This document shows positions 6,339-27,755 of a stretch of 34,050 nt of DNA, in pieces. The position numbers and the translations under genes are program-made. The notes below the pieces were generated by a model. The model was given only the letters and a program-made list of their open reading frames with translations. It made no database searches and was not told where the DNA came from. The stretch's first letter is position 1. Every line of letters begins with the position of its first letter. This stretch comes from a virus: positions 1-34,050 of the IMG/VR virus record IMGVR_UViG_3300017782_000090. One strand, 5' to 3'.

Positions 6339-8488
6339 TACTGTAGTGGACCCTGAGGCGGTTGCTGGGGCTGTGGTGCGTTACCGCCGTTGGCTCCCCC
6401 GCCGCCTCCTGTGAAGCCCTGTGCGTCTGGCTCTGGGGCTGCTCCAGCGACTATATTCCCGCCGCCGTTACCTGTGGGGTCAGCTACGGGTGGTGGACCC
6501 TGTGGAGCCTCTCCCTGAGCCTGTGGCTGCTCTGGGGGCGGTGGCATCATAGCTGCTATCTCAGCCATCATCTTCTGTTGAATAGCTGCCTCACGCGGAT
6601 CGTTGAGTATCTTGTCCTCATCCAAGTCCATAGAAGACGCAAGCTCTCTCAAGATGTAGTCATACTTAACAAACGGCTGCATCGAGGGATTGGCAGTCAT
6701 CTGCATGAACTGCAGGAGCCTCTGGCTGCGTACCTCATTCCGCATCAGGCTCTCAGTACCTCTAGCCTTAACGTCGAGGTCTCCGATAAACTCCTTGTCG
6801 AAGTTAAACTGCATGTTAAATGCGAAGAGGCTCTTACCTAGCGGCCCTAGTAAATAGTCATCAATATTCCTGACTACAGCCTTAATATTCTGTGCGGCTG
6901 CTCCCATTAGCATAGACATACCACTAGCGGTTCTACCAACCCCACCTACGGCTCCAGAACCGTGTGAGTAGCTGGGTATACCTGTAGCCTCATCAGCAAG
7001 CTGTCGGCTCTTATCGAACATCATTAATAGCTCTTGAGATACGTTAGGAAACTTAGTGCCGAAGAGTGCCTGTCCGGGCGCTCCAGCCTGTCTTCTAAAG
7101 ACTTTTCCCGGATATACAGACATATCCTGCCCCGGAACTAAGTTAGTCTCATCAAGCTCAATTAATAGGTTCCCTGATAGAGCGGCGTTATCTACTGCCA
7201 TCCGCATAAAGCCATTCATCAGCAATTGCGTGTCTGTCATGTTCTCAGCTACGCCAATTCCAAAGAAGCTGTATGGATTAAGCTCATAAGGTACGGATAG
7301 GTAGGGAATACGGCTAGGAGTGAATGGATTGAGTACTAGGCGTAGTATTTGCCCGTTACATACCCAGATGTTTACTTGTAGCTCATCCTTGTCGGCTAAT
7401 TCCTTTGGGATATCAATATCGGCCTCATCTGCAAGCTCTGCATCTAAAACACCCCAGTATTCCAGTACCTCAAACCTAGCCATCTCCGCAGAGATAGCGT
7501 CATCCTCTAGAGTGTCTTCCCAGTATTCTTTCTGGTAAGATGGTCCGTACTCAAGTGCTAATTCTATGCTCTCGTTACGGAAGTGAGGTCGTTTCTTTAG
7601 AGAACGCATCTGAGTGCGGTTTAGGCGGTGTCTCTGTACGGTAAACTCAGCCTCAGACATATTACGGGCGTCTGGGTCAGGGTAAAAATCCCAAATGCTG
7701 ACGTATTCCATCTTAGGGATGGTCTCAAACAGCGGATCGTAGTTACCATCCTCAGTCCAGCGGGGATATTCCTTGTCCATAGCAAATGGACCTTTGAATA
7801 CGCCGGTTCCAAAGAGAGTACACTCAAATGCTACTGATCGAAGGTGCTTAGGGGCGTCAGTCTCATCCAACTGATCGTGCATAAGCTTTTCCATCTTCTG
7901 AGCGGCGCGTTTAGCTGGCTCAAAGGTGATAGAACCTTCCATAGTACCTACGCCTAGCTCTAAATCCTTCTCAACAGGCTGTAACTTCTTTTTATACAGG
8001 CCTAATTGCTTGGCTAAGTCAGGCCGTGCAATAGAAGTAGGTACTTCATAGTCAACGTCAGTCTTTTCTTTGACTTTTTCGTCGGTGAGAGCGTTTGGAT
8101 TGTAATTTACGGCCCCAGCTACGTTATTTGGGAACTGTCTGGCCTCAATACCGATAGGAAACTTAGATCCAGCAAATAATACGTCCACAACTTGTGCGTA
8201 GGCAGCTAAGACCTTGGTTTTAGTGATCTTTACAAAGGCCTTAGACTTTTCAGATTCATTAAATTGCACTTCACTGGAGTATAGGCCGCGATAATTGCGG
8301 TAAGAATCCAGCCAACGCTCTTCATCTGTTAGTCTGGCGTCTTTTGAGCGGTTGTATTGGCTCTCTACGAAGGCAACTGTACCGGAATAGCCTATATTTT
8401 CCTCTTCTACATTACTGCCCTCTTCTAGAGGCACTACAATGTCAGTGTCGGTAGCGTCTTCCGGTATAGGTTTGTCCATTAATGCCAT
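6338..8488 (-). CDS. Portal protein (head-tail connector)
   Basis: A 716-residue protein that should form the dodecameric ring through which DNA enters and leaves the head. Typical portal features are the N-terminal region with ERWLDSYRNYRG near residue 58, the central CTLFGTGVFKG and WDFYPDPDARNMSEAEF segments, PYLSVPYELNPYSFFGIGVAENM near 400, and the conserved helix after DKSRQLADEATGIPSYSHG. The last 90 residues are Pro, Gln and Gly-rich and probably disordered. Its length resembles the P22-like and marine podovirus portals, longer than T7 gp8. It lies directly after terminase with a two-base gap. Only a weak ribosome site (GGGTACT) precedes the ATG, consistent with coupling. Confidence 0.9.
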   Translation of the reverse strand: MALMDKPIPEDATDTDIVVPLEEGSNVEEENIGYSGTVAFVESQYNRSKDARLTDEERWLDSYRNYRGLYSSEVQFNESEKSKAFVKITKTKVLAAYAQVVDVLFAGSKFPIGIEARQFPNNVAGAVNYNPNALTDEKVKEKTDVDYEVPTSIARPDLAKQLGLYKKKLQPVEKDLELGVGTMEGSITFEPAKRAAQKMEKLMHDQLDETDAPKHLRSVAFECTLFGTGVFKGPFAMDKEYPRWTEDGNYDPLFETIPKMEYVSIWDFYPDPDARNMSEAEFTVQRHRLNRTQMRSLKKRPHFRNESIELALEYGPSYQKEYWEDTLEDDAISAEMARFEVLEYWGVLDAELADEADIDIPKELADKDELQVNIWVCNGQILRLVLNPFTPSRIPYLSVPYELNPYSFFGIGVAENMTDTQLLMNGFMRMAVDNAALSGNLLIELDETNLVPGQDMSVYPGKVFRRQAGAPGQALFGTKFPNVSQELLMMFDKSRQLADEATGIPSYSHGSGAVGGVGRTASGMSMLMGAAAQNIKAVVRNIDDYLLGPLGKSLFAFNMQFNFDKEFIGDLDVKARGTESLMRNEVRSQRLLQFMQMTANPSMQPFVKYDYILRELASSMDLDEDKILNDPREAAIQQKMMAEIAAMMPPPPEQPQAQGEAPQGPPPVADPTGNGGGNIVAGAAPEPDAQGFTGGGGGANGGNAPQPQQPPQGPLQ

Positions 8489-19689: not shown

Positions 19690-19969
19690 AGAAGAAGTAT
19701 TCAGCAAATTCATATGGGCTATTGGTGGTCTTACTGAAGTAATCGGTCAAATGCACTGTAGTACGACTAATGAAGCTACGGCGCTGCACTGGCACGACGA
19801 TGAGAACTACTGGTTCACGTTAGAAATGCGGGAAGACGGTGTCTACGCAGAGATAGATGACAGTACGGATGCCAAGACTATGTATGCTGCTATCGGCTAC
19901 TGCCAGTATCATGGCATCTCCTACAGTCTTATTTGGCAAGACTACCGAAAGGAGAAGTCTAATGGCTAA
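19682..19969 (+). CDS. Hypothetical protein, 95 residues
   Basis: Not recognised. It is an acidic alpha/beta protein: FSKFIWAIGGLTEVIGQMHCS, then TALHWHDDENYWFTLEMREDGVYAEIDD and a C-terminal helix. A cluster of His, Asp and Glu (HWHDDEN) near residue 36 could bind metal. GGAG lies before the ATG. It overlaps the genes on both sides (8 bases with integrase). Confidence 0.66.
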   Translation: MAKEEVFSKFIWAIGGLTEVIGQMHCSTTNEATALHWHDDENYWFTLEMREDGVYAEIDDSTDAKTMYAAIGYCQYHGISYSLIWQDYRKEKSNG

Positions 19970-21098
19970 AGCTCCTTACGTGAGGCCGCGAGAGGTAGGT
20001 AATGGTTGGGTGTACGACATCAGGCCTACCGCTGAAGTGCTAGAGGCTTTTCCGCATTTGAATGTTAAACCTCGTGAAAACTACACCTGTATTAGAGATG
20101 CCAATGCCCGTGGCTATGAGATTAAGCGTCTGTTCGAGGCCCATAAAGCCGGTGAAGAAGTAGAGGTACGAGCAGACAGCCGTTCTGTCGCTGCGCTGGT
20201 GGACTACTACAAAGACAGCATGGCGTACACAAACATCAAGGCCGCTTCTACCAAGCGGTCATACGATGGTCATCTCAGTCATGTTCAACGTGTACACATA
20301 AGCGGTAAGCAGTTTAGCAAGATGTTTGTGTCACAGGTGGATTACGAATACGCACAAAGATTGTGGCTACACATACAGGATGACGTAAGTACACACAAAG
20401 CCAACCACACATTCAAGGTGCTGAAGCTAGTCTGGAACGAGGGTTTACGTGCGGGGAAAGTTAAAGCTAACCCGTTCTCTCTGGTTAGGATACCTAAGTT
20501 ACCTGACAGGCAGGTTATGTGGACCGTCGATCAGATCAAGGGCATGGTGAAGTACTGTGATGAGCAGGGCTACCCGTCGATGGGTACTATGATCGTCATG
20601 TGCTATGAGTTCTGCCAGAGACCAGTAGATGTAAGGACTATGAAGTGGTCTAACATCGATGGGCGTACTGGTGTGTCTAACTTCATCCAGCAAAAGACCG
20701 GCAAGCAGATGTCCATAAAGGTAACCAACGCCGTTCAGGATAGGTTACATCTACATCAGCACCGTAACTCCGATGACTACATTTTCGCATACGAAAATAC
20801 TGGGCGTCCATACTCTGACGATAGATGTAATAAGTTCTTTCGTAAGCTGGCTGACGGCTATGGGCTACCTGAAGTGCCTCTACACAGTCAGTTCAATAAA
20901 GATGGCAGTCAGATGTATTCTACTATCTGGTTAGCTGACTTACGACGAACTGGGATAACCCATGCCAGTCAGTCTGGCTGCTCAGACAGAGAGCTAATGG
21001 CTCTATCAGGCCACAAGAACCCTCAGATGCTGGTTGTCTATGCAGTAGAGGGCGAGATTGAATCTACCAATGCCAATATAAAACGAGGACTATTATAA
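19962..21098 (+). CDS. int: Tyrosine recombinase, phage integrase
   Basis: A 378-residue site-specific recombinase that should join attP to a host tRNA gene. The N-terminal 180 residues hold arm- and core-binding domains. The catalytic domain shows the first Arg in CQRPVDVRTMKW, the beta-turn Lys in QQKTGKQM, the second Arg in ADLRRTGITH, the His in LSGHKNP and the nucleophile Tyr in MLVVYAV. The usual first His of HxxR is Ala here (ADLR), an uncommon change. The start at 19962 is set by AAAGGAG. A longer reading would run inside the previous gene. The probable attachment site lies 1.5 kb downstream. Confidence 0.93.
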   Translation: MAKAPYVRPREVGNGWVYDIRPTAEVLEAFPHLNVKPRENYTCIRDANARGYEIKRLFEAHKAGEEVEVRADSRSVAALVDYYKDSMAYTNIKAASTKRSYDGHLSHVQRVHISGKQFSKMFVSQVDYEYAQRLWLHIQDDVSTHKANHTFKVLKLVWNEGLRAGKVKANPFSLVRIPKLPDRQVMWTVDQIKGMVKYCDEQGYPSMGTMIVMCYEFCQRPVDVRTMKWSNIDGRTGVSNFIQQKTGKQMSIKVTNAVQDRLHLHQHRNSDDYIFAYENTGRPYSDDRCNKFFRKLADGYGLPEVPLHSQFNKDGSQMYSTIWLADLRRTGITHASQSGCSDRELMALSGHKNPQMLVVYAVEGEIESTNANIKRGLL

Positions 21099-21842
21099 AT
21101 GGATCACGAACAAATTACTGTTCAGTACGTGCGGCACTCCGGTGATGACCTCTCAGTCGTAGATGCGGCTAGAGTGAGTTATGACGCTACGAGTGAGGCT
21201 CTAGGTTATACTGGTAAAGAAGGTGGCCCTATGGTTCCTGAGCTACATGATAAGGATAAGAAGCTCATTCGGTATCTGGCTGATCATAAGCACTACTCAC
21301 CATTTAACCATGCCTTCGTCACTTTCAGGTGTACCGCACCGTTGTTCGCTATAGCGCAACTCAAGAAGAGCGAGTATATGCCGTGGAATGAGATAAGCCG
21401 CCGGTACGTGGACAGTGAGCCTGAGTTCTACTGGCCTACTGAATGGAGAGGCCGTCCTCGCAAGGGTAACTCTAAGCAAGGCAGCGAGGGCCGCATCACT
21501 ATATCAGACGACATCATAGAGGATTCCTATGATGGCGCTATGCTCAGCTATCGGACGCTACTTGAAGTAGGTGTAGCTCCAGAAATGGCTCGCATGGTTC
21601 TGCCGCAGTCAATGTTATCGTCGTGGATCTGGAGCGGTAGCTTAAAAGCCATCAGCAAGATGTGTAGCCTTCGCTGTGCCTCTGACACTCAATACGAGAG
21701 CCGTGTGGTAGCCAATCAGATTAGCGACATCATGCGAGGGCTGTTCCCAGTAAGCTGGGCTGCGCTGATGGGAGAGGCTTACCCATACATACGTCCAATG
21801 AGTGACCAAGAGAGGCAGAGAGCTAAGGAGAAGGCGGCATGA
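21099..21842 (+). CDS. thyX: Flavin-dependent thymidylate synthase, atypical active site
   Basis: A 247-residue protein of the ThyX family, which makes dTMP from dUMP with FAD and methylene-tetrahydrofolate. Conserved parts are seen: HxSPFNH near residues 65-71, NEISRRYVDSEPEFY near 97-111, the ARMVLPQ segment and LRCASDTQYESR. The signature RHRxxSxNExSxR is degenerate. Positions of RHR read K90-S91-E92 and the following Ser is Pro95. N97, E98, S100 and R102 remain. Some marine phage ThyX proteins carry other substitutions here, so activity is plausible but not certain. It abuts the integrase and precedes small genes with ATGA overlap. Confidence 0.88.
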   Translation: MDHEQITVQYVRHSGDDLSVVDAARVSYDATSEALGYTGKEGGPMVPELHDKDKKLIRYLADHKHYSPFNHAFVTFRCTAPLFAIAQLKKSEYMPWNEISRRYVDSEPEFYWPTEWRGRPRKGNSKQGSEGRITISDDIIEDSYDGAMLSYRTLLEVGVAPEMARMVLPQSMLSSWIWSGSLKAISKMCSLRCASDTQYESRVVANQISDIMRGLFPVSWAALMGEAYPYIRPMSDQERQRAKEKAA

Positions 21843-22480: not shown

Positions 22481-22524
22481 GTGGCAAAAATGGCAGACTG
22501 CCACTCTGTAATCTGCCATGCCAC
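22481..22524. repeat. Nested inverted repeat beside attP
   Basis: GTGGCA (22481-22486) and TGGCAGA (22491-22497) are mirrored by TCTGCCA (22512-22518) and TGCCAC (22519-22524). It lies directly after the last small gene and 44 bases before the tRNA-derived core. It could be a weak transcript end or binding sites for integrase accessory factors. Confidence 0.5.
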
Positions 22525-22538
22525 TTTACCCATGTCGG

Positions 22539-22658
22539 AGGCATTTTATTGTTTAATATCAGTAATTTGGCTCCGGCGGTAGGGATCGAACCTACGACCA
22601 ATTGATTAACAGTACCCATTGATTTCATTGGATAATTCGGGATACCTGCAAAATGCCT
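22539..22658. repeat. Inverted repeat bracketing the attP core
   Basis: AGGCATTTT (22539-22547) and its exact reverse complement AAAATGCCT (22650-22658) lie on either side of the tRNA-derived core, about 20 and 37 bases away. Arm-type integrase sites are a natural explanation. A CTGTTAACA (22657-22665) overlaps the right copy. Confidence 0.5.
22568..22612 (-). other. attP: attP core: 3' half of a tRNA-Asn(GTT) gene
   Basis: Read on the minus strand, this 45-base stretch is the 3' half of a tRNA-Asn gene: anticodon loop CTGTTAA (anticodon GTT), 3' side of the anticodon stem TCAAT, variable loop TGGTC, T-arm GTAGG-TTCGATC-CCTAC, acceptor strand CGCCGGA, then G and CCA. No D-arm or 5' half is present, because pairing with the 5' anticodon strand fails after one base. 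Phages that integrate into tRNA genes carry exactly such a half to rebuild the gene. It lies between the integrase region and primase. The host target is predicted to be tRNA-Asn. Confidence 0.88.
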
Positions 22659-22788
22659 GTTAACACTAATTGTTTTTATATGCACCTAATTAAGTGTTGA
22701 CATATGCGAATAACTGTATAAGCTGACGCTGTCTCTTTGGAGAGGCAGAACCCCAAACCAACTACCAACCAACTACTATGAGTGACCA
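22613..22788 (+). promoter_or_regulatory. Leader region before primase
   Basis: No gene besides a four-residue frame (MSDQ, 22778-22792) whose TGA overlaps the primase ATG, which could couple translation since no ribosome site precedes primase. TTGACA is at 22697-22702 and TATAAG at 22717-22722, but only 14 bases apart, so the promoter is doubtful. A hairpin CTG-T-CTCT-TTGG-AGAG-G-CAG lies near 22729-22748. The CAAC-rich leader (ACCAACTACCAACCAACTAC) follows at 22758-22777. Confidence 0.45.
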
Positions 22789-23556
22789 ATGACCTACCTC
22801 GAACAACTAGAAGTCATCAAGGCTATCCCTATACGGGAAGGAGACACTAAAGTAATCCAGTGTCCTTTCTGTGGTGGCTTGAAGAAGCTTTCTGTTTCTA
22901 AAGTAGACGGCCAATTAAAGTGGTATTGCTTTAGAGCAAGCTGCAATGGCAAAGGCATATACCAAGGCAAGAGAAGTCTACAGGCAGCTAAGAATTATCT
23001 AGCAGATGCTGTACAGCAAAAGACTAGAGAGCCAAAGCCTATTCCTTCGATCACTACTCCAGCCCGTAATCATCAGCCAGCACTCGACTATCTAGATCAG
23101 AACAATAGCCTAGAGGCTTATGAAGCTGGATACATAGATGTCCGATACGCACCGGCAGAGGACAGAGTGCTATTTTGTACAGACACAGGCGCTGTAGGTA
23201 GATCACTAAAGAAGTATGGACCTAAGTGGCTTTCTTACGGTGTGCTGGAAGAGGGCATACACGTAGGTGTTGGATCAACAGCCGTGCTTGTAGAAGACAC
23301 TCCTTCTGCATGTTCTGTGAGCAGAGTAAAAGGCCTTGTAGGAGTAGCTTTGCTAGGTACTCGCGTAAGTAACTGCTTAAAAAAGTCGCTAAATAAATAC
23401 AATGCCTGTTATTTGGTCCTTGACAAGGATGCTTCGTCTAAGGCTATAAGCATAGGTAGGAGTATAGATAAAAGCTTACTTATTAGGTTTACTTCTGAGG
23501 ATTTAAAGAACCTATCAGTTAACCAGCTTGTAGAGGTGTTAAGTAATGAATTTTAA
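22789..23556 (+). CDS. DNA primase with zinc ribbon and TOPRIM-like domain
   Basis: A 255-residue protein. Residues 24-60 have the zinc-binding pattern CPFCGG ... WYCFRASCNGKG of phage primases such as the T7 gp4 N-terminus. The central part has ALDYLDQNN and YAPAEDRVLFCTDTGAVGRSL, and the second half resembles TOPRIM (VLVEDTPSACSV as the Glu motif, CYLVLDKDAS as the DxD-like motif). It lacks a fused helicase, which is encoded separately at 24168. It makes primers for the polymerase at 25512. Translation may be coupled to the MSDQ leader frame. Confidence 0.83.
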   Translation: MTYLEQLEVIKAIPIREGDTKVIQCPFCGGLKKLSVSKVDGQLKWYCFRASCNGKGIYQGKRSLQAAKNYLADAVQQKTREPKPIPSITTPARNHQPALDYLDQNNSLEAYEAGYIDVRYAPAEDRVLFCTDTGAVGRSLKKYGPKWLSYGVLEEGIHVGVGSTAVLVEDTPSACSVSRVKGLVGVALLGTRVSNCLKKSLNKYNACYLVLDKDASSKAISIGRSIDKSLLIRFTSEDLKNLSVNQLVEVLSNEF

Positions 23557-25382: not shown

Positions 25383-25518
25383 TGATCTGCCGCCGCACCT
25401 TGCGCTGCTTCTGGAAGAAGTTGGCGTAATTAACCCTGAGCCTGAGCCACAGCCTGTAGTGCGTGACCTCTCATTTAAACGTCCAGAGTTGGATGAGAAT
25501 GGAGAGCCGCCGTGGTAG
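25372..25518 (+). CDS. Tiny acidic protein between helicase and polymerase, 48 residues
   Basis: Begins MKCDDLPPHLALLLEEVGVI, then NPEPEPQPVVRDLSFKRPELDENGEPPW. It overlaps the helicase end by 11 bases and the polymerase GTG by 7. The Pro/Glu-rich linker and conserved position between two replication genes suggest a small accessory or interaction peptide, but the function is unknown. Confidence 0.6.
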   Translation: MKCDDLPPHLALLLEEVGVINPEPEPQPVVRDLSFKRPELDENGEPPW

Positions 25519-27755
25519 ATGATTTGGTAATGGATTTTAAGCCAGAGGCTAGTCGCTCTGATAACAAAAAGCCTAATACTTGCGTTGCTGATCCTGTTAA
25601 GTGGCTTGTTCTAGATCTAGAGACAACGGTCCAACGAATAGATGGCCGCATAGATAACAGCCCGAAAAACCCAGACAACCGGTGTGTGTCTGCTCACTAC
25701 GGCTGGCTTGGGCTGGAGACTGTAGATGAGGTTCATACAGACCTGTGGCATCATAAGGAGCTACAGTCTCCTGATGGGATAGACCGTTTAAAGCAGCACT
25801 TAGCTGAAGCTGACGGCATGATCTGCCACAACGTGAAGTTCGATGCTGAGTGGCTGCTAGAGATGGGTTTTGAATTACCGCCTATCGTCAGAGATACAAT
25901 GATAACAGAGTACCTGTTAGCCAAGGGCCAGCGTAGACTACTCAGTCTTAAAGAGAGTGCGTTACGTCGAAAGACTGCGAGCTTAAAGAAGTCTGACTTA
26001 GTAGATGAGCTATTCAGAGGCGGTACATGCTTCTCTGAAATGCCGTTGGATGTAGTAGTCGAGTACGCAGAGGCTGACGTTAAGGCCTGTGGTGAGTTGT
26101 ATATTGCCCAGCAAGACATCCTAGCCCGTGAGCATAATCTCAGCCTAAAGAAGGTCATTCCCTTTATGAATGAGATGCTGTTGTTTCTCTGCGAGATAGA
26201 GATGAATGGGGTTAAGATCGATAGGGTTGCTCTGGCAGAAGTTGAGGCGCAGTTTACCGAAGAGAAGGCCGCTTTAGAGATAGACCTGAAGCGTATTGTT
26301 GAACAGGTGATGGGTGACACTCCCATTAACCTAAATTCTGGCGATGATATGACTAGAGTGATCTACTCGCGGGAAGTCATCGACAAGGCCATACATAAGC
26401 AGACGTTTAACATCGGTACTAACGAAGCCGGTAAGTCACTCAGACCGCCGTTTGATTTTATAAAGTACCCTAATAAATTTTATGATGCAGTACGGACCAC
26501 CACCAGAGTTGTTATGAAGCAGTCTGCCTCTCAGTGTCCTGACTGTTCTGGTTCCGGTACTATACAGAAGTACAAGGTTAAGACGAAGACGAAGCTAGGT
26601 AAGAAGTATCGTGTGCAGGGTGAGCCGTATAAGAATAGGTCACGGTGTGCTGTCTGTAATGGCGTAGGAGCGATATACACCTCGAATGGAGTAGTTGCTG
26701 GCCTGAAGATGGCCCCTAGTACAGCCTACGATGCCAGTATCGGCGGGTTTAAGTCTGACAAGGTTACTATACAGCGTCTGATTGAACAGGCAGAGCGCAA
26801 GGATAATGCTACCGCCGTAGAGTTCCTGACTAAGCTGTCTCGCCTCAGTGCGGTCTCTGTTTATCTGGATAGCTTTGTGGCTGGTATTAAGAGGGGTACT
26901 CGCGCAAGCGGGTTTCTCCATGCAAACTTCAATCAGTGCATTGCCTCTACGGGTAGACTGTCGAGTGGCGGCGGTATGTCGCTGAACTTACAGAACCAGC
27001 CTAAGAGAGGTTTTCCAGTTCGTAAGTGCTTTGTCAGTCGGTTCCCAAACGGTCTCTTGATCGAAAGTGACTACTCCGCGCTTGAATTTAGAACGGCGTG
27101 TGAGTTGTCGAGAGACAGTCAAGGCTTGGCAGACGTACTAGAGGGTAAGGACATCCACAGACAGACTGCAAGTATCTGTCTACAGAAGCCGCCTAATGAA
27201 GTCAGCAAGGATGAGCGTCAGGGTCACAAGTGGGCCAGCTTCCAGCCACTATTTGGAGGCACTGGAGCCGGTCAACCAGAGCATATAAAGGCATACTTCA
27301 GCCGTTTCTATGAGATATACGAGGGTATATACGGCTGGCATCAGTCTCTAATGAACGGCACTTTAAAAGATGGCACAGTAACCACACCTAGTGGCCGTCA
27401 GTATTTCTGGCCGAATGTCATTAGAACCAAAGCAGACAGAGTATCGAATGCTACTCAGATACTAAATTATCCAGTCCAAGGCTTCAGCGCAGACTTAGTT
27501 CAATTAGCCTGTATAAGGGCGTTTAGGCTGTTTAAGGAAAGAAAACTACAATCAAAACTGATACTTACAGTACACGACAGTTTAGTGTGCGATACACATC
27601 CTGATGAGGTGGATCAGGTCAGAGAAGTTCTTACAGAGGCCATGACTAAGGTCAGCGAAGAGTCAAAAGAGCGGTTTGGTTACTCCCTTGTTGTGCCGCT
27701 CGACATAGAAATAAGTCGCGGTAAAAACTGGCTAGATCAGGAAGAATATGTTTGA
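25512..27755 (+). CDS. Family A DNA polymerase with DnaJ-like zinc insertion
   Basis: A 747-residue replicative polymerase. The 3'-5' exonuclease has WLVLDLETT (Asp35, Glu37), NVKFDAEW (Asp111) and YAEADV (Asp189). The polymerase has motif A ESDYSALEFR (Asp520), motif B DERQGHKWASFQPLFGG (Arg569, Lys573, Phe577) and motif C LTVHDSL (Asp689), where the usual Glu after HD is Ser. Between exonuclease and polymerase, residues 342-387 carry CPDCSGSG and CAVCNGVG, the DnaJ-type zinc motif twice. This matches the unusual polymerase reported for phage HMO-2011. The start is a GTG with GGAGAG upstream; the next ATG (six codons later) has no such site. Confidence 0.93.
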   Translation: MVDDLVMDFKPEASRSDNKKPNTCVADPVKWLVLDLETTVQRIDGRIDNSPKNPDNRCVSAHYGWLGLETVDEVHTDLWHHKELQSPDGIDRLKQHLAEADGMICHNVKFDAEWLLEMGFELPPIVRDTMITEYLLAKGQRRLLSLKESALRRKTASLKKSDLVDELFRGGTCFSEMPLDVVVEYAEADVKACGELYIAQQDILAREHNLSLKKVIPFMNEMLLFLCEIEMNGVKIDRVALAEVEAQFTEEKAALEIDLKRIVEQVMGDTPINLNSGDDMTRVIYSREVIDKAIHKQTFNIGTNEAGKSLRPPFDFIKYPNKFYDAVRTTTRVVMKQSASQCPDCSGSGTIQKYKVKTKTKLGKKYRVQGEPYKNRSRCAVCNGVGAIYTSNGVVAGLKMAPSTAYDASIGGFKSDKVTIQRLIEQAERKDNATAVEFLTKLSRLSAVSVYLDSFVAGIKRGTRASGFLHANFNQCIASTGRLSSGGGMSLNLQNQPKRGFPVRKCFVSRFPNGLLIESDYSALEFRTACELSRDSQGLADVLEGKDIHRQTASICLQKPPNEVSKDERQGHKWASFQPLFGGTGAGQPEHIKAYFSRFYEIYEGIYGWHQSLMNGTLKDGTVTTPSGRQYFWPNVIRTKADRVSNATQILNYPVQGFSADLVQLACIRAFRLFKERKLQSKLILTVHDSLVCDTHPDEVDQVREVLTEAMTKVSEESKERFGYSLVVPLDIEISRGKNWLDQEEYV

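Follow-up and report, generated by a model that had tools for sequence, protein, structure and literature searches.

A tRNA-Asn 3′ half as the putative attachment site of a temperate-type HMO-2011-like podophage with a Rhodobacterales host

The segment at positions 22568–22613 of the window (the whole stretch of 34,050 nucleotides analysed here, which is IMG/VR record IMGVR_UViG_3300017782_000090) very probably serves as the core of attP in an HMO-2011-like podophage of temperate type. The integrase of this phage (encoded at 19962–21098), together with arm sites located on one side of the core, would recombine this segment with the matching 3′ portion of a tRNA-Asn(GTT) gene in a host that belongs to the Rhodobacterales.

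This 34-kb virus record encodes a family A DNA polymerase, ThyX, RNR, an SU10-type portal, and a large terminase. The polymerase (25512–27755, plus strand) carries two CXXCXGXG motifs (CPDCSGSG and CAVCNGVG), and a polymerase with such a partial DnaJ domain is the hallmark of HMO-2011-type podophages (PMC6918029; PMC9038755). Gene order and nucleotide homology agree with this assignment: among the isolates of the phage collection, Roseobacter phage CRP-738 is the closest, and it aligns with the window in collinear blocks of approximately 64–78 per cent identity (blastn). Judged by its sequence, the window is an HMO-2011-type podophage. The ThyX thymidylate synthase gene (thyX; 21099–21842, plus strand; PF02511, E = 9.6e-39) is located between int and attP, and a DNA primase gene (22789–23556, plus strand), assigned by its synteny with CRP-738 gp08, lies on the far side of attP. 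Because phage genes flank the core on both sides, the site is an uninterrupted attP, and neither an attL nor an attR. One relative, L310 (IMGVR_UViG_2823602183_000216), is 90 per cent identical to the window across 10 kb; its identifier differs from the metagenome form, and it may therefore originate from a genome project and offer a direct host link.

The reverse complement of 22568–22612 reads CTGTTAATCAATTGGTCGTAGGTTCGATCCCTACCGCCGGAGCCA and corresponds to the 3′ half of tRNA-Asn(GTT) on the minus strand, with the anticodon loop, the 3′ anticodon strand, the variable loop, the T-arm, the 3′ acceptor strand, and CCA following one another in this order. Identity with the common Rhodobacterales tRNA-Asn gene extends over 46 bp (22568–22613) and ends with a mismatch at the following base. 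Chance is far too small an explanation for an exact 45-bp match to a tRNA. An earlier note, made from the letters alone, had recognized this tRNA half and predicted that it serves as attP for the tyrosine integrase; its identity is now confirmed by the sequence and by the host genes, and the predicted role is supported. The 5′ half of the tRNA is absent at the core site, and neither ARAGORN nor Rfam detected a complete tRNA in the 34-kb window. At the site itself, Rfam returned no tRNA at the gathering threshold or in a permissive scan (a single snoRNA match is attributable to chance). A scan for promoters and terminators gave no signal exceeding chance. The core edge TTAACAG has an inverted copy, CTGTTAAC, at 22657–22664 (plus strand), which is kept in most relatives at a roughly constant position; in L254-type phages, both copies start with CTAC.

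The integrase gene starts at 19962, not at 19857, and encodes a tyrosine integrase of 378 amino acids on the plus strand (PF00589, E = 1.5e-13; phrog_1). The earlier note placed the core next to this gene, which holds loosely: the core lies 1.47 kb past the int stop, beyond thyX. The catalytic residues R220, K245, R328, H351, and Y360 are present, whereas Ala takes the place of the first HxxR His in the window (residue 325, LADLRRT); relatives have Asn or Ser there, and the His is not conserved in the clade. An AlphaFold2 model predicts a lambda-Int-like fold, in which the core-binding domain follows an N-terminal strand-strand-helix-helix region; the best structural matches of this model include full-length lambda Int. 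The alignment to full-length lambda Int 1z1b begins at residue 1 (Z = 18.6), with an rmsd of 9.3 that reflects domains not superposed as one body. The N-terminal region (residues ~1–66; 19962–20159, plus strand) is presumed to be the arm-binding domain, given the model and the covariation of residues 21–62 with the class of half-sites described below; taken in isolation, it matched no Pfam domain and returned nothing in a sequence search of the PDB. Lambda Int (1z1b, 1z1g) likewise has an N-terminal domain ahead of its core-binding domain and uses both arm-type and core-type sites, but it is only ~17 per cent identical to the window integrase, whose presumed arms were seen on one side only and whose target is a tRNA gene. 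Neither a repressor nor an excisionase was recognized among the genes tested. The window combines an integrase with a putative attP identical to the 3′ part of a host tRNA, as expected of phages that enter tRNA genes by means of a tyrosine integrase.

Relatives recruited with the core as bait cannot test the link between int and the core, and we therefore searched with the integrase only. This search identified 70 viral loci, 4 of which end less than 1 kb from int, leaving 66 usable. A tRNA 3′ half is present downstream of int, on the opposite strand, at 63 of these 66 loci, and at 62 it derives from tRNA-Asn; L294 has half of another tRNA at the attP place, and the three remaining loci (L246, L255, and L290) have int but no recognizable half. 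The tRNA-Asn halves of relatives represent three main alleles, all three of which recur as genuine tRNA genes in host genomes. Allele A corresponds to the common host tRNA-Asn gene; allele B, with the compensated T-arm pair GTTGG/CCAAC that is also found in CRP-738, matches the tRNA-Asn of genome G222; and allele C (TTCGACC, CGTCGGAG) matches that of genomes G375 and G089. At the homologous place, the half found in the isolates CRP-3, CRP-235, and CRP-212 is of the tRNA-Met type (at ~3198 in L225, ~3025 in L226, and ~2838 in L227, respectively), and in CRP-212 the T-arm GCAGG/CCTGC replaces GTAGG/CCTAC. For CRP-3, integration into tRNA-Met(CAT) has been demonstrated by sequencing and PCR (PMC6918029). 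At a single conserved genomic position, relatives that have an integrase thus appear to draw on two or more different tRNA genes. In six HMO-2011-type phages of the other integrase clade (HMO-2011, CRP-1, CRP-2, CRP-207, CRP-345, and CRP-603), a T-arm scan near int found no tRNA 3′ half. Taken together, the integrase-only search, the host alleles, and the homologous site of CRP-3 make the interpretation of the core as attP well supported.

The earlier note suggested looking for a bacterial tRNA-Asn identical over the 45 bases, and such a gene was found to be common in Rhodobacterales. Scanning genome contigs for exact copies of 42 core bases yielded at least 119 stretches; the named records among the listed matches are Rhodobacterales genera or alphaproteobacterial bins, and all 106 complete tRNA genes among the matches listed are tRNA-Asn(GTT), with 105 of them reading TCCGGCGTAGCTCAGCGGTAGAGCAGTTGACTGTTAATCAATTGGTCGTAGGTTCGATCCCTACCGCCGGAGCCA. 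A pattern covering T-arm alleles A and B is matched by 318 of 391 Rhodobacterales genomes. Of 385 genomes sampled across the class, 4 contain the exact core and 5 the minimal block (delimited below), and all of these genomes were also drawn in the Rhodobacterales sample (an overlap judged from genome handles). By this comparison, the core sequence is that of a normal Rhodobacterales tRNA-Asn, and the alphaproteobacterial origin proposed in the note is borne out by exact matches to alphaproteobacterial tRNA-Asn. The 5′ acceptor strand that it predicted for the host gene, TCCGGCG, matches the host genes as well, and the predicted 5′ strand of the anticodon stem, ATTGA, is off by one base (hosts have GTTGA, with a G-U pair). 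SAR11 and SAR116, also named there as places to search, are not indicated as hosts, since the class-sample matches are just the five genomes shared with the Rhodobacterales sample. The direct host link that was hoped for does predict the host gene, but, because the tRNA-Asn is identical across most Rhodobacterales genera, it resolves to the order and not to a species. Sequence identity thus indicates that the phage host is a member of the Rhodobacterales, probably a pelagic roseobacter, and an order-level host becomes available for an uncultured lineage within an abundant group of ocean phages. Uncultured marine phages have previously been given hosts through an integrase and an exact attP/tRNA match, with the caveat that tRNA conservation permits broad assignment only (PMC3861242); method and caveat are the same here, and additional support comes from numerous relatives, from host alleles, and from an isolate.

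That isolate, CRP-738 (MZ892992; host roseobacter FZCC0089), shares with the window its gene order, an integrase (72 per cent identical), a TGGCA array, and a tRNA-Asn half between int and primase (at 2934–2978). Its core differs from that of the window by a single compensated T-arm pair (GTTGG/CCAAC instead of GTAGG/CCTAC), and its annotation, unlike that of the window, has no thyX between int and attP. No report of a CRP-738 attP was found in the literature searched, and the comparison names a candidate integration gene for this isolate. CRP-3 (MK613345) resembles the window in where its tRNA half lies and on which strand, in the position of int upstream of the replication module, and in its DnaJ-motif polymerase, but it has a half of a different tRNA (tRNA-Met(CAT)), an integrase of ~30 per cent identity, and no TGGCA array. 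A tRNA-half attP is a known kind of site, whereas the tRNA-Asn target and the pairing of arms with Int are new; tRNA-Asn as a target of HMO-2011-type phages is absent from the literature searched, which excludes most subscription journals and all supplements.

Tyrosine recombinases require homology within the overlap. Some relatives are heterologous in the anticodon loop (L254-type and L281 relatives match the tRNA solely from TCAATTGG onward), and the loop is therefore unlikely as a family-wide crossover; we rejected it as the common crossover. The same limit of identity defines the smallest block common to the tRNA-Asn relatives (TCAATTGG through GGAGCCA; 22568–22605, minus strand), within which the crossover most likely falls, as far as can be judged from aligned sequences. 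The nearest relatives (95–99 per cent integrase identity) have CGGTTAATC where the window and hosts have CTGTTAATC. At position 22611, these nearest relatives (L234–L242, L270, and L279) read CGGTTAA, while the window and hosts read CTGTTAA, and the window may have acquired the host base there through integration and excision. In the proposed reaction, the integrase would bind both the core and the one-sided arm array (22482–22523), and recombination would take place between the core and the corresponding 3′ half of tRNA-Asn(GTT) in the host. Upon insertion, the phage copy would make the tRNA gene whole again. The restored gene would then border the arm array, thyX, and int, with the displaced half of the host gene located past the primase end.

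The arm array consists of five 5-bp half-sites (TGGCA at 22482 and 22491; TGCCA at 22499, 22514, and 22519), at offsets of −86, −77, −69, −54, and −49 from the core (45–86 bp away). Relatives hold this phasing within a few bases (with L293 shifted), and their half-sites include other letters (TCGCA, TGTCA, TGGAA, and GGTCA). When the whole viral collection was scanned with three array patterns alone, 36, 10, and 10 loci were found, and a tRNA-Asn half adjoins the array at all 56. In the 36 arrays of the window class, the array is separated from the core by 42–45 bp, a constancy that argues against the possibility that the array is a repressor operator or a replication origin whose proximity to the core results from gene order alone. 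The inverted-repeat array does sit upstream of replication genes, and tree-wide counts do not discriminate: changes of array class number 8 on the tree of the Int N-terminus and 9 on that of the Int body, and nearest-neighbour prediction of the class succeeds in 31 of 38 cases with the N-terminus and 28 of 38 with the body, which is no strong separation. However, between L288 and L011, the int body is 99 per cent identical in nucleotides and the core and primase side are 99–100 per cent identical, whereas the codons of Int residues 21–62 are 58 per cent and the array 68 per cent identical. These two segments (L288:4063–4182 and 6435–6545) diverge together, and the rest of ~5 kb is near-identical except for one indel region, an apparent coupled exchange of the arm domain and arm sites. 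Conversely, the same-class pairs L282/L011 and L285/L006 retain the array at 98–100 per cent identity despite 45–52 per cent in the adjacent 40 bp. We consider an operator or origin rather unlikely, and the best reading of the half-sites is as putative Int arm-type sites. The N-terminal motif of L288, STTALSQAFPNIKFPETY, recurs in the distant L256 group, also with a TCGCA array. The clean exchange is one event, to which the tree-wide counts add no support, and we give roughly even chances to a wider scheme in which the arm domain and the arm-site array are swapped together as one cassette, without change to the catalytic body or the tRNA target, so that related phages in the same hosts would differ in arm specificity (with TGGCA, TCGCA, TGTCA, and TGGAA as the minimum set). 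The covarying arm sites provide a natural data set on DNA recognition by the integrase N-terminus.

Two further explanations concern the core itself. An exact piece of tRNA sequence could be a host-derived functional tRNA fragment or small RNA, but this is very improbable for a segment that lacks a 5′ half, has no tRNA match in Rfam, and is tied to the integrase clade and the array, the more so as the half found there in other phages of the group comes from a different tRNA. Alternatively, the site could be a relic in a lineage that keeps int and attP yet is nearly always lytic, with integration rare or lost. The unconserved first His of HxxR is in keeping with such a history, as is the absence of a related integrase from all 391 Rhodobacterales genomes (at E = 1e-20, in a search that detected the integrase in four control virus records). 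Among viral contigs with the exact core, a full-tRNA junction beside a related integrase was likewise not found, every such locus having half a tRNA only, and the core-bounded prophages anticipated by the earlier note did not materialize in either data set. On the other hand, the integrase reading frame is open and conserved across the clade (at 54–99 per cent identity); core, array, and int remain together; the T-arm alleles track host alleles via compensated changes; and CRP-3, which is alike in layout, integrates (PMC6918029). We regard a relic as unlikely, and the integrase clade is predicted to be capable of lysogeny, with which absence from the reference genomes is still compatible.

Other elements do use the tRNA-Asn site, as several contigs have a complete tRNA-Asn and a displaced half ~10 kb apart. 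In L044, L048, and L082, elements of ~10.1–10.7 kb lie between the two; that of L044 has an integrase, a terminase, and weak portal matches, that of L082 has an integrase and a primase-helicase, and the three are possibly phage satellites.
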